Source: Candidatus Ventrenecus stercoripullorum
GTDB lineage: Bacteria > Bacillota_I > Bacilli_A > RF39 > UBA660
NCBI GenBank assembly: GCA_018712835.1
Contig: DVGF01000061.1
Coordinates: 1 to 51,007, forward strand
Direction: 5' to 3'
DNA: 51,007 nt
Below, one piece after another: positions 26,895 through 47,589 of the stretch. Below the pieces are notes generated by a model. That model was given only the letters and a program-made list of their open reading frames with translations, was not told the origin of the DNA and searched no databases. Made by a program: the position numbers and the translations under genes. The first letter of the stretch is position 1, and each line of letters begins with the position of its first letter.

Positions 26895-26914
26895 TTGGAA
26901 GAGGAGAGAAATTT

Positions 26915-27805
26915 ATGACTAGAGAATCAAAAGTAAAAACTGGTATAGTAATTGGAGTTATGATTTTTCTTGTTGCAATATGTATTGTGGTTATCGTCTT
27001 TCAAAAGGAACCAACTGTACAAGAACCTAATTTTGGACCAACTAGTCCACTGTCTATGTCTTTAGTGGATGAATATAGCACTTTTTTTGCTTTAAGTCGG
27101 GATGTCAATCAATATTTTACTTATGTTAGAGAAGCAAATAGCGAGGCAGTGTACTCGATGCTTTATTCACGATATATTGATGAAAATCAATTGACAGAAT
27201 CTAATGTATTAGACACTGTTACGTTAGAAAATCCAGATCAATATTTTCAAGCTAAAAATATTTATTATCAGGAATTTAATGGTAATTATTTATATTTAGT
27301 AGAAGGGGTTTTAATTGTCAATGAATTTGAAAATAATGTAGTTATTAATGATGATTATCAAATTTTTGTTATTGCTGATTATAATACTTTTTCTTTCGCA
27401 GTTTATCCTATTTTAAATACAGAAGAAATTACGAATCCTTTGGTAGAAGATCGTATTTCTATCCCTGTTAATAATTATAATAAATTGTTGACTACTGGGG
27501 TTATTAGTAGTGAGTATGTTTGCAATTTATATTATTCTAATTTTATTAGTCAAGTTTTTGAAAATGTAGGAGAGACTTATGATTTGTTATCTAGTTCTTT
27601 TAAAAATCAATATAACATAAATTCTTATACTAGTTATATGAGTGAGAGATTGTCGTTTATTTCTACAGAAGTTTCGAATTGTGATGTACATCTTGAAAAC
27701 GAAAAAAGAGTTTATACTGTTACTGATACAAATTCAAATCAATTTGTCTTTCGAGAAAAATCTATTATGAATTATGAAGTAGAATTTTCTTTCAATGCGG
27801 GATAA
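26915..27805 (+). CDS. membrane-anchored protein of unknown function, possibly VirB8/TcpC-like
   Basis: 296 residues from the ATG at 26915 (AGGAGAG upstream); a longer frame from 26885 overlaps the hydrolase. One N-terminal membrane segment (about 9-31), then an extracytoplasmic region of alternating helices and strands that could be two similar ~110-residue lobes, the second beginning near residue 190. That architecture resembles TcpC/VirB8 proteins of Gram-positive conjugation systems, which carry tandem NTF2-like domains. This is by layout only, with no sequence motif. Position between a wall hydrolase and a VirD4 ATPase supports a role in the same complex. Confidence 0.6.
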   Translation: MTRESKVKTGIVIGVMIFLVAICIVVIVFQKEPTVQEPNFGPTSPLSMSLVDEYSTFFALSRDVNQYFTYVREANSEAVYSMLYSRYIDENQLTESNVLDTVTLENPDQYFQAKNIYYQEFNGNYLYLVEGVLIVNEFENNVVINDDYQIFVIADYNTFSFAVYPILNTEEITNPLVEDRISIPVNNYNKLLTTGVISSEYVCNLYYSNFISQVFENVGETYDLLSSSFKNQYNINSYTSYMSERLSFISTEVSNCDVHLENEKRVYTVTDTNSNQFVFREKSIMNYEVEFSFNAG

Positions 27806-27843
27806 TTTATAGTATAATAGTTAGGAATTGGGAGGAATTAGCT

Positions 27844-30075
27844 ATGAAATTTCGTGTTTCTTCAAAAGATTTTATTATATTTGTTCTCTTTTGTATTTTT
27901 CTACTTTATTTATGTGCAATTGCTGTTTTGAATTTTTCATCTTTTGCGGATGATGGAACATTTTATGGCTTAAATCCATTTCTTGCATTTACGGGTGATT
28001 ACATTTTACTTACTTTGTTTATGTTTGCGATTGCTCTAGTTATTATATTTTCTAGTGTTTCTTCTTATATTTTTGATAAAGATAAAAGTTCTAAGAAATT
28101 TTTGACGATTGGAGAAAAAGAAGAAAAAGGATATTCTAGATGGGCAAAGGATAAAGAAATTAAGGAATCAAAGGATGTTGTTCATGTAAAAGCTATTGAT
28201 CAACATGTAGAAGGTGCAGGAGTTCCTTTAATTAATAATGGGACAGATATTTGGGTAGATAATTCTGAGTATCATACAATGATTATTGGTTCTACTGGTT
28301 CTGGTAAAACAGAATGTATTGTTAAACCAATGGTAAATCTTTTGGCTAAAAAAGGTGAGAGTATGATTATCAATGACCCTAAGGGGGAATTATACAAGTA
28401 CTGTGGCGATTATTTAAAAGGTCAAGGATATAATATAGTTGTTTTAAATTTCCGTGATCCGGATGAAGGAAATTCTTGGAACCCGCTTACGATGCCTTAT
28501 TATTATTTTAAAAATGGAAATTTGGATAAGTCTACGGAACTTTTAGAGGATATCGCTAATAATATTTTGGTGGATCCTAAGAATAAAGACTCTGCGTTCT
28601 GGGAAAAATCTGGTGCTGATTATTTTTCTGGATTAGCATTAGGATTGTTTCGAGATGGTAAAGAAGAAGAAATCAATTTAAACTCGATTAATTTAATGAG
28701 TACGGATGGAGAAGATAGACTAGGAGCTAAAACTTTTATTCAGGAATATTTTAATTTGAAAGGTTCAACTTCTCCAGAGTATATCTTTGCGTCTACGACA
28801 TTTAATGCTCCTAATGAAACCAAGGGTGGTATTTTATCTACTTTTAGGCAGAAAATTCGTATTTTTGCTTCTCGTGAAAAACTTTCTGAAATGCTTTCTT
28901 ATAGTGATTTTGATATGCGAAGTATTGGAGAAAAAAAGACAGCTGTTTTCTTAATTATTCATGATGAAAAAACTACTTATCATAGTCTACTTACTGTATT
29001 TTTAAAGCAATGTTATGAAACTTTGGTTGAGGTTGCTCAGTCAAATGGGGGGAAGCTTACTTATCGAACTAACTTTATTTTGGATGAATTTGCAAATATG
29101 CCTCCTTTATCTGATGTGGATGCGATGGTATCTGCTGCTCGTAGTAGAAATATAAGATTTTCTTTTATCATTCAAAACTTTGCTCAATTAAATGATGTTT
29201 ATGGAAAAGAAGTTGCGGCTACCCTTCGTGGTAACTGTGGTAATACTATTTATTTGATTAGTACTGAAATGGCAGCGTTAGAGGAGATTAGTAAGATGTG
29301 TGGAGAAGTGAAAAGTAAGGAAAAAGATAAGACGGCTTCGACACCACTTGTTACAGTTACTGATTTACAGAAAATGAAACTTTTTCAAGCTATTATTATG
29401 CGTATTCGTATGAGTCCATTTAAAACCCAATATGAACCAGATTTTAAAATTAATTGGGGAATTGATAGAAAGGAACTAGCTTTTCCACATCGTGAACATC
29501 GGCCAATTGCTATGTTTGATTTGAAAACTTATGTTTCTGAGGCGAAGAGAAAACAAATGATGGAAAATGCCTCAAATGGTTCGGGTGGTATGGATAATTC
29601 TTTCAATCCATTTATGCCTAATTCTATGTCGGGAATGAGTAATCCGTTTCTTGGAGGAATGGGTGGTATGAATTCCATGAATCATATGGGGCCTGGAAGT
29701 ATGAGAAATCCTATGTCTTCTAATTCTATGGATATGCCTCAGAAGCCACTTTCTAGCTTAACGAATGATGAAATTGATAAAATGATTGCAGATATTGATA
29801 AAAAGTTAAAAGAGTTAGATGAAGAAGAAGCAAGAGAAAAGGCTAAATTAGCTGAGAAGAAGTCTATGGAGTTACCAAAGATGGATGAGTCTGTTTCTAC
29901 GATACCAGCTACGGCGTCTTCTAGTATTATGAAAGAGCCAAAGGAAATTGAGACTCCAAAAGTTATCGAGGAAGAAAAACCAAAAATTAATGTGGATCGT
30001 GATTCCATTGTCATGAATGATAATATGATTACTGATGATGAATTTTTCGATGATTTCTTCGGCGATGATGAATAA
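27844..30075 (+). CDS. VirD4/TraG-type coupling protein ATPase
   Basis: 743 residues. Two N-terminal membrane segments (about 11-32 and 52-75) precede a hexameric RecA-like motor with Walker A GSTGSGKT (149-156), NDPKGE and Walker B ILDEFANMPPL (D414, E415). This is the type IV coupling-protein family, which recruits DNA or protein substrates to a secretion channel. After the motor comes a Met/Asn/Gly/Pro-rich low-complexity stretch (about 575-635), then a charged coiled-coil and an acidic C-terminus, unusual for TraG. TATAAT at 27813 and GGGAGG upstream of the ATG suggest its own promoter. No relaxase or VirB4 is in the window. A terminator follows. Confidence 0.88.
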   Translation: MKFRVSSKDFIIFVLFCIFLLYLCAIAVLNFSSFADDGTFYGLNPFLAFTGDYILLTLFMFAIALVIIFSSVSSYIFDKDKSSKKFLTIGEKEEKGYSRWAKDKEIKESKDVVHVKAIDQHVEGAGVPLINNGTDIWVDNSEYHTMIIGSTGSGKTECIVKPMVNLLAKKGESMIINDPKGELYKYCGDYLKGQGYNIVVLNFRDPDEGNSWNPLTMPYYYFKNGNLDKSTELLEDIANNILVDPKNKDSAFWEKSGADYFSGLALGLFRDGKEEEINLNSINLMSTDGEDRLGAKTFIQEYFNLKGSTSPEYIFASTTFNAPNETKGGILSTFRQKIRIFASREKLSEMLSYSDFDMRSIGEKKTAVFLIIHDEKTTYHSLLTVFLKQCYETLVEVAQSNGGKLTYRTNFILDEFANMPPLSDVDAMVSAARSRNIRFSFIIQNFAQLNDVYGKEVAATLRGNCGNTIYLISTEMAALEEISKMCGEVKSKEKDKTASTPLVTVTDLQKMKLFQAIIMRIRMSPFKTQYEPDFKINWGIDRKELAFPHREHRPIAMFDLKTYVSEAKRKQMMENASNGSGGMDNSFNPFMPNSMSGMSNPFLGGMGGMNSMNHMGPGSMRNPMSSNSMDMPQKPLSSLTNDEIDKMIADIDKKLKELDEEEAREKAKLAEKKSMELPKMDESVSTIPATASSSIMKEPKEIETPKVIEEEKPKINVDRDSIVMNDNMITDDEFFDDFFGDDE

Positions 30076-35716: not shown

Positions 35717-36484
35717 ATGAGAAAAAGGAAATTGGCTAGTATACTCATTCTTACATTATGTATTTGCTTTTCACCAGTAGCAAATGCAGCGTGTGATTAT
35801 GAAACTCAAGTACAGCTAGCTACAGAAGCATCTAATGTAAACGCAAATTATGAGATATCAGAAGTGGTTTATAATATTGATACAGGTGAAGAAGTTACAG
35901 GAATTTCGGAAGAAGAAATTGCGAAAGATGAAAATCCTTATATCTACCGAAATAAAGTCACAGTTTATATTTATAATTTGACTGAGAATTTAAGTGTGAC
36001 TATTAGCGGAGATAACGGATATGAAGACACATTTACGTTTCAGGAATCTGATAATGGTATGATTACTTTTAGTGGAGATTATGCAGAGGAAATAGTTCAC
36101 TATACTATCCAAGTTTTATCTGCTAATCCAGATTGTACTGGTGATGAACTTCGGACAATTAATTTAACAACTCCAAAGGAAAATGAATACTATTATTATT
36201 CTGCTTGTGAAGGTGTTGATGAATATTTTTGCCAACAATTTATTGATTATGATTTAAATATGACAGAAGCAGAGTTGCTTGAAAGAGCAAATGCTGCACG
36301 AAATAATAATAATCAAGAAGAAGCTTCACAGGAGGAAGAGGAAAAAAACTGGTGGGATAACATAAAAGAATATTTGAACAATAATCCGTGGGTAATTTAT
36401 GTTACGATTGGTGGAATTATTGTGATTGCAGGGGTTGCTACTGCCGTGATTGTGGTCAAAAAACGGAGGAGTAAAGTATTATGA
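35717..36484 (+). CDS. secreted, C-terminally membrane-anchored protein (first gene of the Tad-like locus)
   Basis: 255 residues. Signal peptide 1-25 (cleavage near ANA|AC), an extracellular beta-rich domain (about 30-165) with a few Cys, and a helical Asn/Gln/Glu-rich stalk (about 180-215). One membrane segment (about 227-247) and a basic tail KKRRSKVL finish the protein. It could be a cell-surface assembly or anchoring factor for the pilus. GAGGTGGG precedes the ATG. The stop overlaps the next start by 4 nt (ATGA), tying it to the operon. No known family. Confidence 0.75.
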   Translation: MRKRKLASILILTLCICFSPVANAACDYETQVQLATEASNVNANYEISEVVYNIDTGEEVTGISEEEIAKDENPYIYRNKVTVYIYNLTENLSVTISGDNGYEDTFTFQESDNGMITFSGDYAEEIVHYTIQVLSANPDCTGDELRTINLTTPKENEYYYYSACEGVDEYFCQQFIDYDLNMTEAELLERANAARNNNNQEEASQEEEEKNWWDNIKEYLNNNPWVIYVTIGGIIVIAGVATAVIVVKKRRSKVL

Positions 36485-39400
36485 GAAAGAAAATATCAAC
36501 TTTATTATTTGTTTTAATAGGAATTTTATTATTTCCTAGTATTGCTAATGCAGAGCTTGCTTGTGAAGGCGTTAGTTATAATATTTTTAGAGACAATGGG
36601 GGGAATGCATATCCATTACACTTAAACGATAATGTTTCTTATGGTATGTATACTTATGGTGTTTCTGGATATGAGAGGAATGTTAAAGCGTATTGTATTG
36701 ATCCGTTAAAAAGAAGTGGTACCGGTGATTCTCAATGCGTTCATCGGGTGGATCCGTCTAGTACAGCTAATGATGGATATCGTCAATTTGATATTGCCGT
36801 CACAAAAGCATATCAAATGTTAGTAGAACGTGGTCGTAATGGTGTTGGTGTGGAAGATAGAGTTCTTGGAGAAGTTATATTTCGTTGGATCAATAACCGC
36901 TACGGGTTGATGTCTGGATCAATTGGTTCTACGAACAATGGTGGCATTACAACTTCCGGTTCTGATATAAGGTCAATTTTTTATGGAGGATCTGTTGGTG
37001 ACAATTATAGTTCTTATGAGGCTAACTTTAATAGGTATTGGGCTCATTCTAGTTATGGTGAAGCTGCAACAGCACGAGAAATTTTCAGAGAAGCTACCAG
37101 AGTTGCAGAACTTGGAAAATCTTATGAAGAATTAGTTAGAGATGGAGATATATGGGGAGATACTTATACTGTGAATTCGGCAACTCAATCTACTGTTGGT
37201 AGCAATGTTGAACAAATTGTTATTAATTTGAGTGCTGGAAGCAGTAGTGCTCAAAATATTTATTGGGATGAATTTACTGGTGGTTGTGATAATACTGGTG
37301 TAATTTGTACAACTGAAAGTGTTCAACCAACAGGTAATGGAGTACAAATTACTATTAATGTTACAAGACAACCTGGATATAATGGACAAGATTATAAAGT
37401 TTATGTACAGAGTTCTATTTATGATACTAGATCTTCTTCATCTAATATGATTATTGTTACACCTAAAACAGGGTTCAGACAAAATATGTTGTTGGTTACA
37501 GACAGCACGATTCAATTTTTACATGGTGGAAGTAAAGTTTATATTGAAACTACTCCTGGACCAGGTACTGGTGGAGGAAGTTGTCAAATTATAGGAGATC
37601 AACATTATTGTAGTGACGGTCAACCTTGTAGTGAACCTGAATATCGTAAAGATTGTGAAGATATTGATTGTACACCAATTATAGATATGCCTGGTGATTG
37701 TAATAACTTTGATGTAGAAGATACTGCAACTGGTATTATTAGTGATATTAATGAGGTATCAGGAAATAGTTGTAATCCAGATGTTAATCAAGTTAAACAA
37801 TGTGTTCTTGGTCATGATGATTTAACTGATACTTCTTATGAGTCTACCTTAGAACTTAATAATAATCCTTATTGTAAAGTTTATTGTAAAGAAAAATATG
37901 AGTTTGGTGTTCCTACTGCTCAAATTACAAGAAGTGGTGGATACTTTACTCTATCTGCTACTATTAGTGCAGATAGAGATTGTTATGTAGCAAGTAATAA
38001 AGGTACTGATGAAGGAATTAATACTGCACAATTTAAAGCGGATTTAATAGCGGCTTCACATGCTATTGTAGATGCTTATAATGAATATAAATATTATAAA
38101 GATGCGTCGAAAGTGCAATCCACTCTAGATAATGATGGCTGCGGTTATGAAGGACATTGTTCTGCTACAGAATCTGTTTATACTAGATCTTGGAGTGGGA
38201 CAGTTTATGATTATAACGGAAATGCACATTCTTATGGCGGAGAGAATAGCTTTACACAAAATGAAGTGACCTATAATGGTTCTTATACTAGTGGTACTAC
38301 AGCTTCATGTTCATCTAGTGGAGGATCATCAAGCTGGACTGATCCTGAAACGGGTATATCTTATCCTGGTTCTTCTCCAACTTATACATGTAAGAATGGT
38401 ACTGCAGGAACTGATTTAGATACCGATACTAAAATGAAAGACGCTATTGAAGATTTGGAAGAAGCTGTAGATAAATTAAATCAAATTATCTTGAATTATA
38501 ATAATTGTTCTGGTGCTATTTCTAATGAAGAGTTAAGATCGTTTACTTCTGTTATGACGAATGTTGACGTTAATCCTACTTCTTCTGATACTACTAGTTG
38601 GACAAATGATATGAAATTTGATCCTAAAGTGACTTATAATTATAATCAAGACTATATGGAACGGTTAACCGGCGAAATGAAGCAAACTTCTTCGTCTGGT
38701 CCTAGTGCTACTACTATTATGTATTGTGATGGCGGTATAGATAATCAGTATGGTTGTACAGGTTCTTCAAGTTCTACTCTTTCTGGAAATTTATTAGGAA
38801 CAGAGGCAGTTACCGTTTGTGCTGCAGTTATCAATGATGAAGGAAATTTTGATTATGGTTGCAAAAATATGAATGTTAGAGTTAGTAAAGCAGACTATGT
38901 TCAGAAATCTAAACATGCTGAAGCATCTTATGCTCCAGATACAGAATTTTCAACATATACTCAGTACGGTACTATAAAGTTTAAGCATGATGCTTGTAGT
39001 GGTAATGATTGTTTATGGAGTAACCTTCCTGAAAGTGCTTTGCCAGTATCTTTAATTACACAAACTGGTGTATTCCCATTTGTTATTAATTATGAGAATA
39101 TTGGTCAAGATAATAATAGTGGGGCTCTAGGTAGACTTGCTGGTAATCAAAATAGTGTATTAAATGCTTATAATGAGCTTCCTGCTGGTCTTAGATGTAC
39201 AGGTTCTGTTGGAAATGATTATTTAACTCAAGATGCTGGATATGTATGTCATTATTTAACAAACTGTAATGATGAAGAACATTGTGACTTTACTTGTGAT
39301 GATGAGAATAACTGTGAATTTACTGAGATTGATTGTACAGATGATCACTGTACTATGACTTGTGAAAACTGTATCTTTGATGGTGAGACTAATAACTTTA

Positions 39401-39903
39401 GTTATCGTACAATTACATTAAATAATTTGAATCCTAATGAACGTAGTCTAGGATTTAACTGGAGTAATGTTAAAGGTCAAGCTACTCAAAAGGCTGTAGA
39501 AGATGATGGTGAGACTATTTATGAAACGCCACAATATTCTTATACATTAACACCTAGTAATTTAAGTAAAATTCGTGAATATAATAATCAAGCTGGTTCA
39601 TATACAAATGCTTATATTCCTGATGAGTATGCTAGTCGAGTAGGAAATACTTCTTTATCTTGTCAGACTATGTCATATAATGGAGAAGATATTGGATTAA
39701 ATTATAATTGTCGAAGTAATTTCTTGGAGTTAATTGAAGTTAGTGGTAATGAATTTGCTACAGAATCTTATCGCATCACTAGTGATAGTGAAGAAGGAAC
39801 TGATGCATTTGAATCATTCTCTGGATGTAGTAATGGATACGGTAATGGAGAGTGTCAGTATGTTGGACCTTCATGGAGAATTAGAACTAGGGAGGTTTCA
39901 TAA
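36481..39903 (+). CDS. very large secreted Cys-rich surface protein
   Basis: 1140 residues with a signal peptide (1-24, IANA|E). The N-terminal region contains VKAYCIDP followed by a helical segment, reminiscent of thioester adhesion domains, but I see no clear TQxA motif. The middle is rich in Ser/Thr/Gly with many paired Cys, including CxDxxxC clusters at about 930-965 (NDEEHCDFTCDDENNC). No LPxTG motif and no C-terminal membrane segment are present, so it must be held by another component, plausibly as a pilus tip or fibre-associated adhesin. TAATG overlap with the following pilin-like gene. Confidence 0.75.
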   Translation: MRKKISTLLFVLIGILLFPSIANAELACEGVSYNIFRDNGGNAYPLHLNDNVSYGMYTYGVSGYERNVKAYCIDPLKRSGTGDSQCVHRVDPSSTANDGYRQFDIAVTKAYQMLVERGRNGVGVEDRVLGEVIFRWINNRYGLMSGSIGSTNNGGITTSGSDIRSIFYGGSVGDNYSSYEANFNRYWAHSSYGEAATAREIFREATRVAELGKSYEELVRDGDIWGDTYTVNSATQSTVGSNVEQIVINLSAGSSSAQNIYWDEFTGGCDNTGVICTTESVQPTGNGVQITINVTRQPGYNGQDYKVYVQSSIYDTRSSSSNMIIVTPKTGFRQNMLLVTDSTIQFLHGGSKVYIETTPGPGTGGGSCQIIGDQHYCSDGQPCSEPEYRKDCEDIDCTPIIDMPGDCNNFDVEDTATGIISDINEVSGNSCNPDVNQVKQCVLGHDDLTDTSYESTLELNNNPYCKVYCKEKYEFGVPTAQITRSGGYFTLSATISADRDCYVASNKGTDEGINTAQFKADLIAASHAIVDAYNEYKYYKDASKVQSTLDNDGCGYEGHCSATESVYTRSWSGTVYDYNGNAHSYGGENSFTQNEVTYNGSYTSGTTASCSSSGGSSSWTDPETGISYPGSSPTYTCKNGTAGTDLDTDTKMKDAIEDLEEAVDKLNQIILNYNNCSGAISNEELRSFTSVMTNVDVNPTSSDTTSWTNDMKFDPKVTYNYNQDYMERLTGEMKQTSSSGPSATTIMYCDGGIDNQYGCTGSSSSTLSGNLLGTEAVTVCAAVINDEGNFDYGCKNMNVRVSKADYVQKSKHAEASYAPDTEFSTYTQYGTIKFKHDACSGNDCLWSNLPESALPVSLITQTGVFPFVINYENIGQDNNSGALGRLAGNQNSVLNAYNELPAGLRCTGSVGNDYLTQDAGYVCHYLTNCNDEEHCDFTCDDENNCEFTEIDCTDDHCTMTCENCIFDGETNNFSYRTITLNNLNPNERSLGFNWSNVKGQATQKAVEDDGETIYETPQYSYTLTPSNLSKIREYNNQAGSYTNAYIPDEYASRVGNTSLSCQTMSYNGEDIGLNYNCRSNFLELIEVSGNEFATESYRITSDSEEGTDAFESFSGCSNGYGNGECQYVGPSWRIRTREVS

Positions 39904-40349
39904 TGAGAGAATCATATTGGGGTTATTGGATAATCTTACTTGGAATATTTGTAATTGTTATTTTGATGTTAGTATCGAATGTGACAACGACAAATACACA
40001 AGATTATTATTTAATTAAAGAAGTTACGGAAGCTTCTATGGTAGATGCTGTAGACTTAGGTTACTATCGTACTACTGGAGAGCTTAAGATTAATTCTGAT
40101 AAGTTTGTAGAAAGTTTCTTGAGAAGATTTGCTGAAAATGTAGAACTTAATACTTATCAAATTGATTTTTATGGAATTTACGAGGCTCCTCCTAAGGTCA
40201 GTGTAAAAGTTACAACTAAGAGTGCTACTTATAATGTAGCGTCTGATTCTACTTCATTTGATATTACTAATAGAGTAGATGCTATCTTAGAATTGAATGG
40301 TGTCGTAGAGTCTAGTGATTCACAAGATAATAATTTATCGCCTAGATAA
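39903..40349 (+). CDS. TadE-like minor pilin/pseudopilin candidate
   Basis: 148 residues. The N-terminus MRESYWGYWIIL leads straight into one membrane helix (about 9-26), then a soluble domain with an alpha-beta course (VTEASMVDAVDLGYYR, ELNTYQIDFYGIYEAPPKVSVKVTTKS). This is the TadE/pseudopilin layout: short positively charged leader, hydrophobic spine, small globular head. It overlaps the upstream stop by one base and is followed 18 bp later by the SAF genes. Confidence 0.65.
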   Translation: MRESYWGYWIILLGIFVIVILMLVSNVTTTNTQDYYLIKEVTEASMVDAVDLGYYRTTGELKINSDKFVESFLRRFAENVELNTYQIDFYGIYEAPPKVSVKVTTKSATYNVASDSTSFDITNRVDAILELNGVVESSDSQDNNLSPR

Positions 40350-40367
40350 TATAAAGGAGGAATGAAT

Positions 40368-41258
40368 ATGGGGAATATTCTCGTAAAGATTAAAAGATTT
40401 TTAAGTAACAAGAATACTGTAACAATCCTATGTGTATTAGGAGGTATTCTTGTTCTTTATATTGGGTATAATTGGCGTGTTTCTTCGGCAACGGAACCAG
40501 TTCGTATTCCTTATGCTAAAAATACGTTGTCTTCTAGACAAGTGATTACTTCTGATGATATTGGATATATGGAAGTTGCTAGTTCCGTTGTTAGTAAAAT
40601 GCGGAATGTGATTCGTAATTCTGGGCAATTAGTTGGTCAAGAAGTTACTTATGGAAATGTTATTCAAGAAAATAGCTTCTTTTTCCAAGGTGATGTTGAA
40701 GATCCTTCTACGAATCAAGGTACTTCTGCATTACTTAGCAATATTGAAGATGGATATACCCTTGTTTATTTGGATGTAAATTTACATACTACTTTTGGTA
40801 ATGCAATTTATCCGGGAAATTATATTGATTTATGGTTTGAAGGAACTGATGAGAATCGTAGATTTATTTATGGTAAGTTTATTCAAAGTATCCGAGTTTT
40901 AGATGTTACAGATGAAGATGGTAATTCTGTGTTTGAAACTGGTGCTGAAAGTAGAACACCTGCTCAATTATTATTTGCTGTTCCTGATGAACTTAAATCT
41001 TTACTTGAAAAAGCAAAATTAGTTGGAGAGCTTGTTCCAGTTCCTCGAAATAAGAGTTATTCTGAAAATCCAGGGGCAACGGAAGTATCTAGTTCTTACT
41101 TAGAAAATTTCGTATTAGCTCAATCTGTAGTAGTTCCTGATGAAGGTACTTCTTCTGGAAACAATAACAATAATAGTAACAACAATAATAATGGCAATAC
41201 GAATAATGATAATACTTCAAATAATAATAACAATAATGATGTGACAGAGGAGGAATAA
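40368..41258 (+). CDS. cpaB: SAF-domain CpaB/RcpC-like pilus assembly protein (copy 1)
   Basis: 296 residues from the ATG at 40368, 7 nt after AAAGGAGG (an ATG at 40362 is too close). One membrane segment (about 19-38), then a SAF domain with IPYAKNTLSSRQVITSDDI, and a CpaB-type C-terminal region with LLFAVPDELKSLLEKAKLVG. The tail is a low-complexity Asn/Ser run (about 262-292). CpaB in Tad systems stabilises the secretin, but a monoderm has no outer membrane, so here it probably positions the fibre in the wall. Its neighbour is a paralogue. Confidence 0.82.
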   Translation: MGNILVKIKRFLSNKNTVTILCVLGGILVLYIGYNWRVSSATEPVRIPYAKNTLSSRQVITSDDIGYMEVASSVVSKMRNVIRNSGQLVGQEVTYGNVIQENSFFFQGDVEDPSTNQGTSALLSNIEDGYTLVYLDVNLHTTFGNAIYPGNYIDLWFEGTDENRRFIYGKFIQSIRVLDVTDEDGNSVFETGAESRTPAQLLFAVPDELKSLLEKAKLVGELVPVPRNKSYSENPGATEVSSSYLENFVLAQSVVVPDEGTSSGNNNNNSNNNNNGNTNNDNTSNNNNNNDVTEEE

Positions 41259-41259
41259 A

Positions 41260-42108
41260 ATGGGTAGTGGATTAACGAAAGTCAAACGTTTTATTGGTAA
41301 TAAAAATACAGTTACGATTTTATGTGTTGTAGCGGGTATTGCTGTGTTATATATTGGTTATAATTATCGTGTTTCTTCTGCTATTAATCCAACAACAGTT
41401 CCTTATGCAAAGAACACATTAGAAGCAAGACATGTTATTACTGTGGATGATATTGGATATATGGAAGTCAATAGTGATGTTGTTAGTAAATCGGATAATT
41501 TGATTACGAATGGTAATGAATTGGTTGGAAAAGAAGTTACATATGGTAATACAATTCAACAGAACAGCTTATTTTATGATGGAGATATTACTGAGCCTAA
41601 TTTATCACCAGATTATGTTTTAAGTGATATTGAAGATGGCTATACAGCATTTTCTTTGTCAGTTGATACTTATACTACTTATGGTAATGCCATTGCTAAA
41701 GGAGACTATATTGACCTTTGGTTTAATGGAGAAGATGATACTAATAAAATCATTTATACTAATTTAGTTAAGAGTATAAGAGTATTGGATGTGCGTGATT
41801 CAGCTGGTGTTTCTTTAGAGCATGCAAATAGTACAGGAGAACCTGCAGAGTTATTGTTTGCAGTACCAGATGATATGTATTCTTTGCTTGTAAAAGCTCA
41901 ACAAGTGGGGACATTAGAGCCTGTTCCTAGAAATCGTAATTATACAGCTGATCCTGGGGAAACTGAAGTTGTTAGTGAATATGTAGTACAGTATGTATTA
42001 TCAAAATCTGTGACTATTCCTGATGAAAATACTTCGTCTGGATCAAATTCAAATTCAACAACGAATAATACAAATTCTAATAATACAAATAATAATACAA
42101 CTAATTAA
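41260..42108 (+). CDS. cpaB: SAF-domain CpaB/RcpC-like pilus assembly protein (copy 2)
   Basis: 282 residues, a tandem paralogue of the preceding protein. Shared features are KNTVTILCVV-G--VLYIGYN in the membrane segment, VPYAKNTLEARHVITVDDIGYMEV in the SAF domain (shown with gaps of identity), LLFAVPDDMYSLL, and an Asn/Ser/Thr tail. It starts one base after the previous TAA. Divergence is enough to suggest an old duplication and possible heteromeric use. Role as for copy 1. Confidence 0.82.
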   Translation: MGSGLTKVKRFIGNKNTVTILCVVAGIAVLYIGYNYRVSSAINPTTVPYAKNTLEARHVITVDDIGYMEVNSDVVSKSDNLITNGNELVGKEVTYGNTIQQNSLFYDGDITEPNLSPDYVLSDIEDGYTAFSLSVDTYTTYGNAIAKGDYIDLWFNGEDDTNKIIYTNLVKSIRVLDVRDSAGVSLEHANSTGEPAELLFAVPDDMYSLLVKAQQVGTLEPVPRNRNYTADPGETEVVSEYVVQYVLSKSVTIPDENTSSGSNSNSTTNNTNSNNTNNNTTN

Positions 42109-42131
42109 TAAAGAATGTTTGGGGTGATAGA

Positions 42132-43256
42132 ATGAATGATGCTATTTTTTCTCAATTAGATTTTGGGCCTCTTGAAGAGTTTTTACGCGAGGACAATGTT
42201 ACCGATATTTCGTACACGAATGGTGGACAAGTTTGGCTTAAAACATTGGACAAAGGTGTATATCAAGTAGATCGCCCCGAGATTAATAATGCTTTAATGG
42301 AGAAATTGGCATTTCAATGTGCAAATGTTATGGGTAAGACATTTAATATGGCTCATCCAATGCTGGATGCTGAAAGTGCTGAATTGCGTATGAATTTTAT
42401 TCATGATTCCATTGCTACAAATGGTATTGCATGCGTTATTCGTAAAACTCCAGCAAAGATTCGTTTGAATAAGGAGAAGTTATTAAACGAAAAATATGTT
42501 ACTGCTTCTGTTCATGAATTTTTGATGCAATGTGTTAAGGGACATGCCAATATCATTGTTAGTGGAGAAACTGGTTCTGGTAAAACCGAGCTTGTTAAAT
42601 ATTTAGCAAGTCATATTGCCGAAAATGAAAAAATTATTACAATTGAAGATACTTTGGAATTACACTTGGATCGTATCTTTCCACATCGTGATATTGTGGC
42701 ACTTAAAACAAATAATATAGCTAGTTATAGTGATGTTTTGGTTGCTTGTATGCGTCAGAACCCAGTTTGGATACTATTATCCGAGGTTCGTAGTGCAGAG
42801 GCTGTTATGGCAGTTCGTAACTCTATTTCTTCTGGACACCATATTTTGTCTACTATTCACTCTGATAAAGCTAGTTTAATTCCAATGCGTATGTTTGCCT
42901 TAATTGAAAGTAATATTGATGTAGAACAATTCGTTACAACGATACATCGTTATGTACAAATTGGTATTTATGTTAAAGGTTATATGAGTAAAGAGCTTGG
43001 TCGATTCCAACGTGAGATTATGGAAGTTTGTGAATTTTATGTAGATGAAAATAACAAGCCACAAGTAAATATCATATATAAGAAGACTCTAACAGGAGAT
43101 ATTACTATGAATAATCCAACTAAATATTTGCGTGATTATTTAGGAATTAGTGGTGTTGTGTTAGAAGATGATATTTTTAAATTAGATGAGCAGGCCGGAA
43201 TAAAGCCAACACTCACCGAGGAAAGCAATACTGCTCCGGCAGTAGAGACTTTATAA
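42132..43256 (+). CDS. cpaF: CpaF/TadA-type secretion ATPase
   Basis: 374 residues. Hexameric motor of Tad pili; it powers fibre extension from the cytosolic face of the TadB/TadC platform. Walker A is GETGSGKT (145-152), followed by IITIEDTLELHL (Asp box), the Walker B region VWILLSEVRSAEAV (about 212-225) and the His box SGHHILSTIHSD. The N-terminal part (LEEFLREDNVTDISYTNGG) matches CpaF. GGGGTGATAG precedes the ATG. The length and N-domain are closer to CpaF than to GspE/PilB, and no zinc-binding C4 motif is present. Confidence 0.93.
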   Translation: MNDAIFSQLDFGPLEEFLREDNVTDISYTNGGQVWLKTLDKGVYQVDRPEINNALMEKLAFQCANVMGKTFNMAHPMLDAESAELRMNFIHDSIATNGIACVIRKTPAKIRLNKEKLLNEKYVTASVHEFLMQCVKGHANIIVSGETGSGKTELVKYLASHIAENEKIITIEDTLELHLDRIFPHRDIVALKTNNIASYSDVLVACMRQNPVWILLSEVRSAEAVMAVRNSISSGHHILSTIHSDKASLIPMRMFALIESNIDVEQFVTTIHRYVQIGIYVKGYMSKELGRFQREIMEVCEFYVDENNKPQVNIIYKKTLTGDITMNNPTKYLRDYLGISGVVLEDDIFKLDEQAGIKPTLTEESNTAPAVETL

Positions 43257-43269
43257 AGAGGTGATAGTC

Positions 43270-44166
43270 ATGATAGAATTAATTATATTAATTGCTTTAG
43301 CCGTTTTTGCACTTACTTATCGATTTAATAATGGGGAGAATGTCTATAAATTCTTTGTTACTTCTGTTGCAACTGCTTATGATAAGTATGCTCCTTATAG
43401 TTTTAAGGAAGTGCGTAAGAAAACGAAAGAGTTGGGGCAAGAGTATACGACAAGACAATATTTGACTCAGATTGCAGTATTTGCGATCGTGGCTTTTGGT
43501 ATTACTTATTTATATTTTTATAATATTATTATTTCGGCTATTTATGCTTTGATAGCAATTGCTTTTATTCCATATCTTGCATATTTACGTTGTCAAAAGG
43601 TATATAGCGAATTTATATTTGAACAAGTACAAATTTATACTACAAACGTTATTATGGAATTTAATACGACACAGAGTTTCGTAAAATCTTTGGAAGGTGT
43701 GCGAGATTCTGGAATTTTGGAAGACCCAGTATTACAAGATGTTAAAACCATGATTGATATGTCTTATCAAAATGGTACGATTGATGAATCTATTGAATTT
43801 TTTAATCATAAATATCCATTTTATATGGTAAAGAATATGAACCAATTGTTTTTGCAAATTACTAAAGAGGGTGCAAAGGACTCTGGACAAGCTCTTGAAA
43901 ATATGTCCATGGATATCGATGCCTTAGTAGAAGGGGTATATCGAGATCAAATTGACCGTAAAGAATTCCATAGACGATTTGTTACTTTCGGTTTAGCGCT
44001 TTTTTTGCTGGTAATGGCGATGCAGTTCTTACTTGGAACAGACTCTTATATTGAACTACTTGATATGTGGTATGTACAACTTATTCTACATGCGATTATT
44101 ATTATAAATTGTTTCTTCTTAATTAGTGGTGAGAAGTTCTACTATGAAGATGTGGGGGTGGAATAA
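43270..44166 (+). CDS. tadB: TadB-like membrane platform protein
   Basis: 298 residues from the ATG at 43270, since AGAGGTGAT lies 6 nt upstream (GTG at 43261 falls inside the ribosome site). There are hydrophobic segments near the N-terminus (1-20), at about 72-105 and two near the C-terminus (about 237-256, 268-290). The central region contains the T2SSF/TadB cytoplasmic helices (FNTTQSFVKSLEGV, ENMSMDIDALVEGVYRDQ). It pairs with TadC to form the inner-membrane platform contacted by CpaF. One-base overlap (TAATG) with the next gene. Confidence 0.85.
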   Translation: MIELIILIALAVFALTYRFNNGENVYKFFVTSVATAYDKYAPYSFKEVRKKTKELGQEYTTRQYLTQIAVFAIVAFGITYLYFYNIIISAIYALIAIAFIPYLAYLRCQKVYSEFIFEQVQIYTTNVIMEFNTTQSFVKSLEGVRDSGILEDPVLQDVKTMIDMSYQNGTIDESIEFFNHKYPFYMVKNMNQLFLQITKEGAKDSGQALENMSMDIDALVEGVYRDQIDRKEFHRRFVTFGLALFLLVMAMQFLLGTDSYIELLDMWYVQLILHAIIIINCFFLISGEKFYYEDVGVE

Positions 44167-44954
44167 TGTACTTTGAAGTTTTTGCCTTAGCAGCTATCTT
44201 ATTATTTGGTTTGAATTATACTGGTAAAATTAGTGCGAATCGTTTCGTTTCTGATAATGAGGTATATTTTAGAAAACTGAAAGAGAGTGATTGGGATTTT
44301 TATGTAAAAGCAAAGTATGGCGATACTGCAAATCCTGACTTCTTATTTAATAAAAGAGTAAAGAATGGCCTTTTAGCTATTGTAGTCATGTTGTGTTTCT
44401 TTATTTCTAATTTGACTTATATTACTGTTTTATTTAGTGTTTTAGCAGGCTATTTGGTTTTTAAAATGGATTATTCTAATATTAAAAAGTATTATAAGCG
44501 TCATTTAAATGAAATTGATGCAATGTTACCACATTATTTAAAGGGACTAGAAATTTTAATTCAGCATTATACTGTTCCAGTAGCGCTTGGTAAATCTATT
44601 GAAGATGCACCTCCTATTTTTAAAGAGGGGCTTCAAGAAATGATTAAGCAAATTAATGATGGTGATGATAGCATTAATCCTTATATGAATTTTGCTAAAA
44701 CGTATCCTGTTCGTGATTCAATGCGAATGATGCGTTTGTTATATCGTTTGTCTTTAGGACGTCAAGAGCATAAACAAGAGCAATTACTAACGTTTTCGAA
44801 AACCATTTCTAACTTGCAACAAAAGGCTCGAGAACTTAAGTATAAACAACGTTTAGAGAAGATGGAAAGTAAGACTATGAAGATGTTAATTACAACTGGT
44901 TTAGGTGTTATGGTCCTATTGATTTTCGCGGTGCTCATGTTAATGAATATGTAA
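44166..44954 (+). CDS. tadC: TadC-like membrane platform protein
   Basis: 262 residues. Hydrophobic segments at about 4-18, 67-100 and 241-260 bracket a cytoplasmic helical domain with HLNEIDAMLPHYLKGLEIL and TVPVALGKSIEDAP, the T2SSF pattern of TadC. It completes the TadB/TadC pair. A promoter for the downstream pilin genes starts just past the stop, so the pilins can be expressed separately from the assembly machinery. Confidence 0.85.
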   Translation: MYFEVFALAAILLFGLNYTGKISANRFVSDNEVYFRKLKESDWDFYVKAKYGDTANPDFLFNKRVKNGLLAIVVMLCFFISNLTYITVLFSVLAGYLVFKMDYSNIKKYYKRHLNEIDAMLPHYLKGLEILIQHYTVPVALGKSIEDAPPIFKEGLQEMIKQINDGDDSINPYMNFAKTYPVRDSMRMMRLLYRLSLGRQEHKQEQLLTFSKTISNLQQKARELKYKQRLEKMESKTMKMLITTGLGVMVLLIFAVLMLMNM

Positions 44955-44959
44955 AAATA

Positions 44960-44988
44960 TTGATATTTTATGAAAAAAAAGTTATAAT
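44960..44988 (+). promoter_or_regulatory. promoter of the pilin-like gene cluster
   Basis: TTGATA (44960-44965), 17 bp, TATAAT (44983-44988); a strong internal promoter that would give high pilin expression relative to the assembly genes. Confidence 0.8.
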
Positions 44989-45018
44989 AAAAAAGAAATA
45001 GATAGGAGGAGAGAGTTA

Positions 45019-45276
45019 GTGAAGGAAGCAACAGGTGAATTAAATATGACAGTTGTTACAGTAGTTGCAATTGCCGCTGTAGCTGCGTTCTTCTATGCAT
45101 TTGTTTGGCCTGCTATTCAAAGAAGTATTGAACAAAATACAAGATGTGCAGCCGCTCAAAATTGTCAATGTGACGGTGATACTTGTGATTGTCAATGGTT
45201 GAACGATGAAGGTACGTATGAAGATATTGAATGTCCAAACAACGATACAACTGGTAATACCCAAAATAACGGGTAA
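45019..45276 (+). CDS. small pilin-like protein (major pilin candidate 1)
   Basis: 85 residues, GTG start with GGAGGAGAG upstream. Short leader MKEATGELN, one hydrophobic helix (about 11-32, ending WPAI), then a Cys-rich head of about 45 residues (CAAAQNCQCDGDTCDCQ). Size and layout match Flp-type pilins, but the G-FTLxE or G-xxxxEY cleavage consensus is absent. It is paralogous to the next gene, sharing MKEATGELN-TV and FFY-x-x-WPAI. Placed first after the strong promoter, it is a good candidate for the fibre subunit. Confidence 0.7.
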   Translation: MKEATGELNMTVVTVVAIAAVAAFFYAFVWPAIQRSIEQNTRCAAAQNCQCDGDTCDCQWLNDEGTYEDIECPNNDTTGNTQNNG

Positions 45277-45291
45277 TAAAGGGAGGTAAAC

Positions 45292-45537
45292 ATGAAAGAA
45301 GCGACTGGTGAGTTAAATACAACAGTTATTGTGGTTATTATAGTGGCTATGCTAGTAGCTTTTTTCTATTTTACTATCTGGCCGGCCATTAAAAATAACA
45401 TGAATGCAAATAGTGCATGTGCGAAAGCGATTTGTCCTAGTGAAAATCGTAGTAGTGATGGACGGACTGTAGAATGTTATGTTTTGGATAAAAATGGCAA
45501 CAGGTCTGATACTTTTACATGCGTTTGGAAAGGTTAA
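45292..45537 (+). CDS. small pilin-like protein (major pilin candidate 2)
   Basis: 81 residues, ATG after GGGAGG. It shares the MKEATGELNTTV leader and a hydrophobic helix (about 11-32) ending IWPAIKN with the preceding protein. The head has four Cys in a different pattern (SACAKAICPS, ECYV, FTCVW). Tandem duplication with divergent heads suggests two alternative or co-polymerising subunits. Only 15 bp separates it from either neighbour. Confidence 0.7.
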   Translation: MKEATGELNTTVIVVIIVAMLVAFFYFTIWPAIKNNMNANSACAKAICPSENRSSDGRTVECYVLDKNGNRSDTFTCVWKG

Positions 45538-45552
45538 TAGAGAGGTGGTTAA

Positions 45553-46077
45553 ATGAGAGAAGCCATAGGTGGAACCTGGTTATTTCAAATTGTGATTGTG
45601 TTTATTTTACTATTCACAGGTTTTTTATGCTTGTCTATTAACCGTTCTAAAGCATTTAACGTGAAGGATCAAATTATACAAACGATTCAAAGTTATAATG
45701 GAATAGATTTGACAAGTGAATATGAAGATGGTGAAGAAGGGCCATTGGCAGATATTATTTCTTATATTTCTTCAAATTCTTATCGAACTACTGGTAATGT
45801 TCCAGAGCCAGAAAAAGTTGGAGATGATATTGTCGAATATGTATGCTATACACGTGATGGTAGAATTACAACATCTAATCCTGTTTTTTGTATTGCTCCA
45901 ATTCGTGTGGATAGCGAGGGGTGTGCAAGTGGAGAAACTTGTTTTAATGAACTTCCCGATATGACTTATTATCGTGTTGTAGTATTTTATCAGTTAGATT
46001 TACCAATTTTCCATGATTTATTTAATTTTAAGATTGTTGGAGATACTAAAACCTTGTTTGGAGGTGCTAGTGTATGA
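45553..46077 (+). CDS. minor pilin/pseudopilin-like protein 1
   Basis: 174 residues: leader MREAIGGTW, hydrophobic helix (about 9-28), a helical spine (SINRSKAFNVKDQIIQTIQS) and a globular head of about 110 residues with three or four Cys, ending in a beta-rich stretch (FKIVGDTKTLFGG). The head resembles the next protein's (DLPIFHDLFNFKIVGDTKT against SLPIIGDIFTFSVDGETVD), so the two are paralogues. It is probably an initiator or tip minor pilin. ATGA overlap with the next gene. Confidence 0.7.
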   Translation: MREAIGGTWLFQIVIVFILLFTGFLCLSINRSKAFNVKDQIIQTIQSYNGIDLTSEYEDGEEGPLADIISYISSNSYRTTGNVPEPEKVGDDIVEYVCYTRDGRITTSNPVFCIAPIRVDSEGCASGETCFNELPDMTYYRVVVFYQLDLPIFHDLFNFKIVGDTKTLFGGASV

Positions 46078-46544
46078 GACAAGCGATAGGTACGACATGG
46101 ATTATGCAATTAGTAATCATTTTTATGCTTATTTTTGTCGCATTTCTTGCATTAACTATTAATTATACAAAAGCGTTTAAAATGAAAAATGAACTTATTA
46201 CTTTTGTTGAAAAGAATGAAGGAATTAGCGAAAGAGAAGATGGGACCCTTGATTTAATCAATAACTATTTGGAGTATAATGGTTATAGTGTTCGAGGTGG
46301 GTGTCCTGAAGGTAGTTACGGGATAGATGATTTAAATGATCCTGTCTTAAAAGAAGCACAAGATGGTGAACGTTATTATTATTGTATTCAAAAGATTCCG
46401 ACTGCTGGACCTTCTACAATGGAACGAGCTAGATATCATGTGACAATATTTTTCCATTTCAGTTTACCAATTATTGGAGATATTTTTACATTTTCTGTAG
46501 ATGGTGAGACAGTGGATATTACGAATCCAGTTGACAGTTTATAA
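46074..46544 (+). CDS. minor pilin/pseudopilin-like protein 2
   Basis: 156 residues, paralogue of the preceding protein: leader MRQAIGTTW, hydrophobic helix (about 9-28), NYTKAFKMKNELI spine and a head with two Cys (GGCPEG, YYYCIQ). The start overlaps the previous stop by 4 nt, so the pair is translationally coupled and likely made in equal amounts. The CpaE-like gene follows 16 bp later. Confidence 0.7.
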   Translation: MRQAIGTTWIMQLVIIFMLIFVAFLALTINYTKAFKMKNELITFVEKNEGISEREDGTLDLINNYLEYNGYSVRGGCPEGSYGIDDLNDPVLKEAQDGERYYYCIQKIPTAGPSTMERARYHVTIFFHFSLPIIGDIFTFSVDGETVDITNPVDSL

Positions 46545-46560
46545 TAAAGGGGTGAATAGG

Positions 46561-47589
46561 ATGAACGTAAAAATTGTAAATAAGTATGCGTCTTTATTGG
46601 CTGATTTAGATATTGATTTTATTAAGAGCGTAGAAGGAGAATTTACTTCTGAAGAAATTATTATGCAATTTAGTAATTTTTTCTATAATAAAATGATTAT
46701 CGATATTACAGCAATTAAAGGGTATCAAGATATTACGAAAATTCAAGAATTATCTGTAAATATGGATATGAGTAAAGTCATTTTACTTCTTGATGATTCG
46801 GAGATTGTAAATAGTCCTAGATATTTATCTCAACTTGTTTCTATGGGAATTTATAATTTTACTAGAAATGTTGATGCCATTAAATTTTTAATTGATAATC
46901 CAAATACTTATAAGGATGTTGCTCAGTATCATCAATTAAATATGAATATGGTGGCTCCAACTGCAGAGGCAACTGATACAGATACGGGAGCTTTTGGTGG
47001 GTCTCCGACTATTGTATACGAACAAAGAGATTTGAGAATTATTGGTATTAAAAATGTTACTGAACATGCTGGTAGTACGACATTAACTTATTTGTTAAAG
47101 AAACAATTAGAAAAGAAATATAAAGTTGTAGCAGTAGAAGTAGATGATAATGATTTTATGTATTTGAATGATAAGACACTCAAACATACTAATCATATGG
47201 AATTACAAAATTTTATTGCGGCAAATTATACGGCTGATGTTATTTTAGTTGATTTAAATGATCATGGAGCGGTTTCTTCTTGTAATGAGGTTTTATACTT
47301 GATTGAACCTGGACTTATTAAATTAAATAAATTAATTCGTAAAGACCGTCATGCGTTTGAAAAGCTAAAAGGCGAAAAGATTATTTTAAATCGTAGTGTA
47401 TTAAATAATACTGATGTTGCTGATTTTGAATATGAGTCTCGTAGTAAAGTGTATTTTAATATTCCATATTTAGATGATAAATTAGATAATAATCATGTTT
47501 TAAATGAATTGTTGATTAAAATGGGATTTGCTCGTTTGGATGATGATAATTCTGAAAAGGGTGGCAAGTTGTTTAGTATTTTTAAATAG
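46561..47589 (+). CDS. CpaE/TadZ-like protein with degenerate P-loop
   Basis: 342 residues from the ATG at 46561 (AGGGGTGAATAGG upstream); the longer frame begins inside the preceding gene. An N-terminal receiver-like region (about 1-125) precedes a MinD/ParA-fold domain from about 155: IIGIKNVTEHAGSTTLTYLL, VVAVEVDDN, ADVILVDLND. CpaE/TadZ localises the Tad machine at the membrane. The deviant Walker A would read KGGxGKTT; here it is K164...G171-S172-T173-T174, so the catalytic Lys is Ser and ATP hydrolysis is doubtful. A scaffold role without hydrolysis, as proposed for atypical TadZ, is plausible. Confidence 0.78.
   Translation: MNVKIVNKYASLLADLDIDFIKSVEGEFTSEEIIMQFSNFFYNKMIIDITAIKGYQDITKIQELSVNMDMSKVILLLDDSEIVNSPRYLSQLVSMGIYNFTRNVDAIKFLIDNPNTYKDVAQYHQLNMNMVAPTAEATDTDTGAFGGSPTIVYEQRDLRIIGIKNVTEHAGSTTLTYLLKKQLEKKYKVVAVEVDDNDFMYLNDKTLKHTNHMELQNFIAANYTADVILVDLNDHGAVSSCNEVLYLIEPGLIKLNKLIRKDRHAFEKLKGEKIILNRSVLNNTDVADFEYESRSKVYFNIPYLDDKLDNNHVLNELLIKMGFARLDDDNSEKGGKLFSIFK

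Follow-up and report, generated by a model that had tools for sequence, protein, structure and literature searches.

Four neighbouring genes on a contig of Candidatus Ventrenecus stercoripullorum (GTDB order RF39, family UBA660; GenBank assembly GCA_018712835.1, contig DVGF01000061.1; the window is the whole analysed stretch of 51,007 nucleotides) are best explained as coding for pilins and pseudopilins, the subunits of a Tad-like filament that a CpaF-driven machine would assemble. The Tad-like locus in which they lie is conserved throughout a large family of uncultured gut Bacilli. The removal of a leader peptide by a prepilin peptidase is regarded as a common step of bacterial type IV filaments. 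From the sequences compared here, we lean slightly, with a confidence just short of even, towards the view that the hexapeptide with which these subunits begin is retained as a cap and is not a classical leader, over its cleavage by a borrowed A24 prepilin peptidase.

The start M-[KR]-[EQ]-A-[IT]-G, followed by one hydrophobic helix of about 20 residues, is common to four open reading frames between 45019 and 46544, which form two families, one pilin-like (about 83 residues) and one pseudopilin-like (about 165 residues):

45019-45276, + strand: pilin-like protein A, 85 residues, MKEATG-ELNMTVVTVV..., with a WP motif and a Cys-rich tail; candidate major subunit
45292-45537, + strand: pilin-like protein B, 81 residues, MKEATG-ELNTTV...; paralogue of A
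45553-46077, + strand: pseudopilin-like protein 1, 174 residues, MREAIG-GTWLFQIVI...; predicted long N-terminal helix and alpha/beta head
46074-46544, + strand: pseudopilin-like protein 2, 156 residues, MRQAIG-TTWIMQLVI...; paralogue of pseudopilin-like protein 1 (39% identity)

The gene at 45019 starts with GTG and those at 45292, 45553 and 46074 with ATG, and a Shine-Dalgarno-like sequence is found at the usual distance upstream of all four. When the six frames of the window were scanned (open frames of at least 60 codons), the pattern M-[KR]-[EQD]-[AS]-x-G was found on five open frames, i.e., the four reported genes and one frame inside another gene, against 0.17 expected, which shows that the shared start is not due to chance. 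The four shared starts proposed by the initial annotation are thus borne out by the open reading frames, the Shine-Dalgarno-like sequences, the motif scan and the homologues described below. Each protein has a hydrophilic leader ending in Gly and then about 20 hydrophobic residues; the odd features of the hexapeptide are that no basic residue stands at −2 and that Glu is missing at +5, the latter, as the annotation had pointed out, if a cut fell after Gly6. The leader length of six residues, which had also been considered unusual, equals that of the Pseudomonas aeruginosa PilA leader (PMC4471445) and is therefore not unusual. Pilin-like protein A matched no Pfam or NCBIfam family above the cut-off, and the pseudopilin 1 of a genus-mate (G017) is 86% identical to that of the window.

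The locus around these genes spans 36481-47589 and contains, in addition to the four subunit genes, the following:

36481-39903, + strand: secreted Cys-rich protein, 1140 residues, heading the locus; possible adhesin
39903-40349, + strand: DUF5411 protein, 148 residues, MRESYWG... (PF17424, E=3e-58, 196 bits vs. a cut-off of 30); membrane-anchored subunit
40362-41258, + strand: CpaB/RcpC-like protein 1 (PF16976, E=3.7e-5, 24.1 bits, below the curated cut-off of 28.8)
41260-42108, + strand: CpaB/RcpC-like protein 2, paralogue of CpaB/RcpC-like protein 1
42132-43256, + strand: CpaF/TadA-type traffic ATPase (PF00437, E=8e-28; best PDB sequence match CpaF, E=4e-18)
43261-44166, + strand: polytopic membrane protein where TadB would be expected; taken as platform from its position and topology
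44166-44954, + strand: membrane protein where TadC would be expected; taken as platform from its position and topology
46561-47589, + strand: putative CpaE/TadZ-like protein, suggested by position and a degenerate P-loop GIKNVTEHAGSTTL, with no family match

Of the 62 loci compared, drawn from the genus and the family, 51 to 55 have each of these members: the pseudopilins, DUF5411, the CpaE-like and CpaB-like proteins, CpaF and the two membrane proteins; the small pilins were counted in only 39 loci owing to a 70-residue length filter. The 1140-residue protein, which has no Pfam or NCBIfam match, has relatives in 27 of the 62 loci. Neither tadV nor a candidate peptidase was found among the families conserved in these loci. 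The TadA and VirB11 models of NCBIfam score similarly against the CpaF-type ATPase, both below their cut-offs. The two membrane proteins have no Pfam T2SSF match, and their hhalign comparison with PilC gave low probabilities from shallow profiles; they are assigned as the platform on the basis of position, topology and a reported operon (PMC9523054) that is considered below.

DUF5411 was found in 196 of 232 genomes of the host family (at least 93% complete), and in a sample of the class outside this family only matches below the Pfam cut-off were obtained. The initial annotation noted a likeness between its start and those of the four subunits, of which the M-[KR]-E-[SA] part is indeed shared, but the remainder is not, since the Gly at position 7 is present in 66 of 83 sequences, with 12 changes, and is not conserved. 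As profile similarity to the subunits also ends after the first 20 residues, DUF5411 was rejected as a fifth pilin with the same signal.

The alignment of the subunit homologues at their start codons covered 210 distinct pilin-like sequences, 204 of them with Gly6, and 206 distinct pseudopilin-like ones, 188 of them with Gly6. In the pilin-like family, positions 2-9 are all nearly fixed (K in 205, E in 196, A in 205, T in 194, G in 204, E in 204, L in 203 and N in 197 of the 210 sequences), and Gly6 is conserved no better than Lys2, Ala4, Glu7 or Leu8, with 4, 4, 5, 6 and 4 changes, respectively, on one tree, where such change counts come from single approximate trees and have limited precision. 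The pseudopilin leader, on the other hand, is variable apart from Gly6, which changed 12 times vs. 28-53 times at the other positions from 2 to 12. State reconstruction, which took in seven further sequences, gave eight changes from Gly to Ser, three to Ala and one to Thr in the pseudopilins, followed by one from Ser to Thr and one from Ala to Asn, and three changes to Ser and one to Glu in the pilins. Gly6 has thus been lost at least 16 times independently, 11 times to Ser, three times to Ala and once each to Thr and Glu, whereas Asn is derived from Ala. The conservation of the Gly across homologues, on which the initial annotation made its idea of a signal depend, therefore holds only in part: it is the slowest position in the pseudopilins, but it has been lost repeatedly there and in the pilins, and it is not conserved in DUF5411.

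Since the loci L221-L300 were gathered with a pattern containing the pilin motif, the pilin counts from these loci are biased; the unbiased first set of 78 pilins (the window and L121-L173, found via pseudopilins or DUF5411) has Gly in 75 and Ser in three and gives the same picture. Position 11, which would be +5, is Thr or Ser in the pilin family and mostly Phe, Leu or Ile in the pseudopilin family, and no Flp-type Glu5-Tyr6 was found in the pilin-like homologues. A BLAST match between ‘KEDEIKKGQQ’ proteins and the pilin family was put down to the hydrophobic helix and not counted.

The same genomes also encode canonical type IVa prepilins (e.g., MKNNKG/FTLIELLAVIV), which resemble the Tad-like subunits in having a positive residue near the start and a Gly before the hydrophobic helix. 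The 27 distinct prepilin-type sequences found via the N_methyl family (including one from genome G210 that is unlikely to be a pilin) begin with leaders of 4-13 residues that are mostly basic, including at −2, and are followed by an FTLIE-like sequence with Glu5, and the Gly at −1 is invariant (27 of 27). In contrast, the Tad-like proteins have a fixed length of six, Thr or Ile at −2, Glu or Gly/Ser/Thr at +1, and no Glu at +5. The prepilin Gly at −1 has been described as invariable in bacteria and absolutely critical, and Glu5 as dispensable for processing (PMC4471445). Measured against the 27 canonical sequences, such invariance is not found in the hexapeptide families, with their 16 or more losses. 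The initial annotation offered two options, either that the pilins are of an unprocessed type or that a new signal directs their processing; the signal is conserved and differs from the class III leaders of the same genomes, but the repeated replacement of Gly6 counts against cleavage.

It was also stated that no prepilin peptidase is present, and this is true of the window; however, the search of the host genome that had been called for revealed exactly one A24 gene elsewhere in the same assembly (C39:23483-23812, E=8e-12), which carries an N-terminal A24_N domain and sits between the type IV pilus (T4P) genes PilB and PilC. The notion of a host genome devoid of prepilin peptidase was therefore rejected. 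Throughout the family, A24 was detected in 221 of 232 genomes, where it usually adjoins PilC, and both Asp motifs (D117 and G-x-G-D193) are invariant in 13 family A24 sequences, including the truncated ones described below. All eleven genomes in which A24 was not detected also lack PilC. Three of these (G015, G106 and G394) have PilB and 8-25 prepilins, so that their lack of A24 and PilC is probably a gap in the assembly. Taken at face value, the A24-less genomes are mostly weak evidence, because 11 of 232 is compatible with incompleteness, and only the pair G487 and G488 was kept as a real loss.

These two sister species, whose assemblies are 95% and 94% complete, keep every core Tad family, yet no PilC was found in them and no A24, either with Pfam or with a profile that includes the A24 of a congener; the same profile matches three congeners at E<1e-85. 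In G487, PilB and prepilins were not detected either. The Tad-like locus is under purifying selection in this pair: at dS values of 1.0 to 1.9, simple NG86 estimates put dN/dS near 0.08 in DUF5411, 0.2 in the pseudopilins and 0.4 in the pilin, ratios that are unreliable in size at such dS but clear in direction. The two species share the same pilin start, MKEAAGEANLTV, and residue 6 of pseudopilin 2 is Ala in both, vs. Gly in three A24-bearing congeners. No other single line of evidence speaks as strongly as this pair for A24 being unnecessary to the Tad-like system, although the pair amounts to one lineage and two draft metagenome assemblies.

A converse situation is found in nine genomes of the same genus that lack the T4P PilC, have only CpaF-level PilB matches or none, and yet keep an A24 with both catalytic Asp motifs together with a Tad locus. 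This could mean that A24 is kept for the Tad system. The orphan A24 of these genomes has about 215 residues, with the N-terminal domain missing. Such a form without the N-terminal (methylase) domain was seen at L043, L045, L047, L049, L056, L057, L059 and L060, and also at L119, a locus of another genus, where the truncated A24 still adjoins PilC. Six of the nine genomes keep a single canonical prepilin (MKNNKG/FSVVES) in a conserved housekeeping position; at L190-L195, this orphan prepilin (MKNNKG/FSVVESLIV, about 163 residues) lies beside an SDR gene, mostly followed by an endonuclease-IV-like gene, in genomes that lack PilB and PilC. In addition, G210 has an A24 gene (L216:7931-8749), whereas no pilus ATPase, PilC, credible prepilin or DUF5411 was detected in it. 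A24 retention without a visible substrate system, as in G210, shows that retention alone proves little, and the orphan A24 was therefore rejected as proof of a service to Tad, given also the orphan prepilin in six of nine genomes and the truncation beside PilC at L119.

A structure was predicted for pseudopilin 1 (mean pLDDT 84), which shows a helix over residues 3-47 and an alpha/beta head, i.e., the general shape of a pilin, with weak library matches; the model has no bearing on cleavage. Nothing significant was returned by Foldseek, whereas VIA listed weakly pilin-like rows amid unrelated ones, the best being the minor pseudopilin XcpV (Z 4.8), which tied with unrelated proteins and is not distinctive. 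No row of the fold library identified a Tad pseudopilin, an outcome with which a Tad pseudopilin is compatible. The DUF5411 model (mean pLDDT 67) was too poor for a fold search.

Taken together, the sequence data on the cleavage of the Tad-like subunits are divided. In the proposed mechanism, each subunit would be inserted N-in/C-out by its one hydrophobic helix, with the Cys-containing part outside the cell, and the CpaF-driven platform would pull the subunits into a single-membrane (monoderm) type IV filament. The hexapeptide M-[KR]-[E/Q/D]-[A/S]-x-G would then lie on the cytosolic face and stay on the subunit as a conserved cap, recognised by the assembly machinery or by neighbouring subunits, and a small residue, usually Gly, would be favoured where the helix enters the membrane. 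We favour this retention because the whole pilin leader is conserved alike from position 2 to 9, where canonical leaders vary in both length and sequence, because Gly6 is lost, because no basic residue stands at −2, and because one lineage lacks A24. To the reading that a bacterial type IV filament is assembled from pilins and pseudopilins with the hexapeptide attached, with no need for a prepilin peptidase, we likewise give slightly less than even credence. Bacterial type IV filaments are known to have processed pilins, and one system often borrows the peptidase of another. Together with the slow Gly6 of the pseudopilins, this makes it a real, though less favoured, possibility that the hexapeptide is a class III leader cut after Gly6 by the only A24 (PilD/ComC-type) of the genome, borrowed in trans, which would yield mature pilins lacking Glu5. 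The near-universal A24 of the family, with its three probable assembly gaps, and the orphan A24 of the nine T4P-less genomes also count for such borrowing and against retention, leaders of six residues with a final Gly are usual and processing does not require Glu5 (PMC4471445), the slow pseudopilin Gly6 is what a cleavage site predicts, and for MSH loci the use of another system's peptidase has been inferred (PMC6668835). However, borrowed cleavage is at odds with the intact locus of G487 and G488, with the repeated loss of Gly6, mostly to Ser, and with a leader that has an acidic residue inside it and no basic one at −2; moreover, six of the nine genomes have a canonical prepilin on which the orphan A24 could act instead, and G210 keeps its A24 with no apparent pilus substrate at all.

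Two further explanations seem improbable. The small proteins could be ordinary uncleaved bitopic proteins of a secretion apparatus, and not filament subunits, which we consider unlikely: the locus has T4SS-like genes close by, both in the window and in its relatives, the ATPase scores alike against VirB11 and TadA models, the homology of the platform is unconfirmed and the fold matches to pilins are weak, yet CpaF is the best PDB sequence match of the ATPase, CpaB/RcpC-like proteins are present, and each small protein has one N-terminal helix and, after it, either a small tail or an alpha/beta head. Slightly less probable again, in our view, is that an enzyme outside the A24 family recognises [KR]-[ED]-[AS]-x-G and cuts the leader, which would explain the conservation of Gly6, Glu3 and Ala4 and the Tad loci of A24-less genomes; no conserved uncharacterised polytopic peptidase candidate was found in the locus, and we know of no peptidase unrelated to A24 with such a recognition motif.

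The likeness of the locus to the Tad/Flp type IVc pilus lies in the CpaF-type ATPase, the two membrane proteins in TadB and TadC positions, the CpaB/RcpC-like proteins, one or two pilin-like proteins that are very small and have a single helix, and two pseudopilin-like proteins of TadE/F size. It differs in lacking TadV and the Flp Glu5/Tyr6 motif and in having a fixed six-residue start and DUF5411, while the homology to TadB and TadC is not confirmed. A DUF5411-CpaF-PilC/GspF operon has been reported as a predicted secretion system in Roseburia, Ruminococcus and Eubacterium, all Clostridia (PMC9523054, Nat Commun 2022). As that operon is described, it resembles the present locus in uniting DUF5411, CpaF and a PilC/GspF-like membrane protein, whereas it is clostridial, and the pilin-like proteins, leader motif and peptidase question do not figure in the description. 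Tad-like loci of Gram-positive bacteria in which no prepilin signal motif is apparent (PMC3244431, PLoS One 2011) are similar in that their Tad-type machinery has small proteins lacking the canonical motif; unlike any locus analysed here, these clostridial loci carry tadV. MSH pili (PMC6668835) are a parallel in that their loci have no peptidase of their own although the genomes do encode one, whereas in our family one lineage has no detectable A24 at all.

If the subunits are assembled uncut, prepilin peptidase would be dispensable, and the charge-pairing role of the free N-terminus and Glu5 would have to be filled by other means. If cleavage does occur, this is still a family-wide Tad-like system in uncultured gut Bacilli, with pilins off the canonical motif and reliance on a peptidase encoded elsewhere. 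DUF5411 is placed as part of a Tad-like apparatus, and congeners with and without A24 offer a natural comparison.

Some neighbouring genes were also recorded. Upstream of the Tad-like locus, the window contains an M23/phage-lysozyme-type protein and a VirD4/TraG-type coupling ATPase (24849-30075), and in the relatives L141 and L147, T4SS_pilin-like, TcpE-like and VirB4-like genes adjoin the locus, suggesting that the two kinds of apparatus, T4SS-like and Tad-like, may be linked. Near the T4P genes of the window's own genome, a collagen-like G-x-T repeat protein is encoded at L174:11922-12833.
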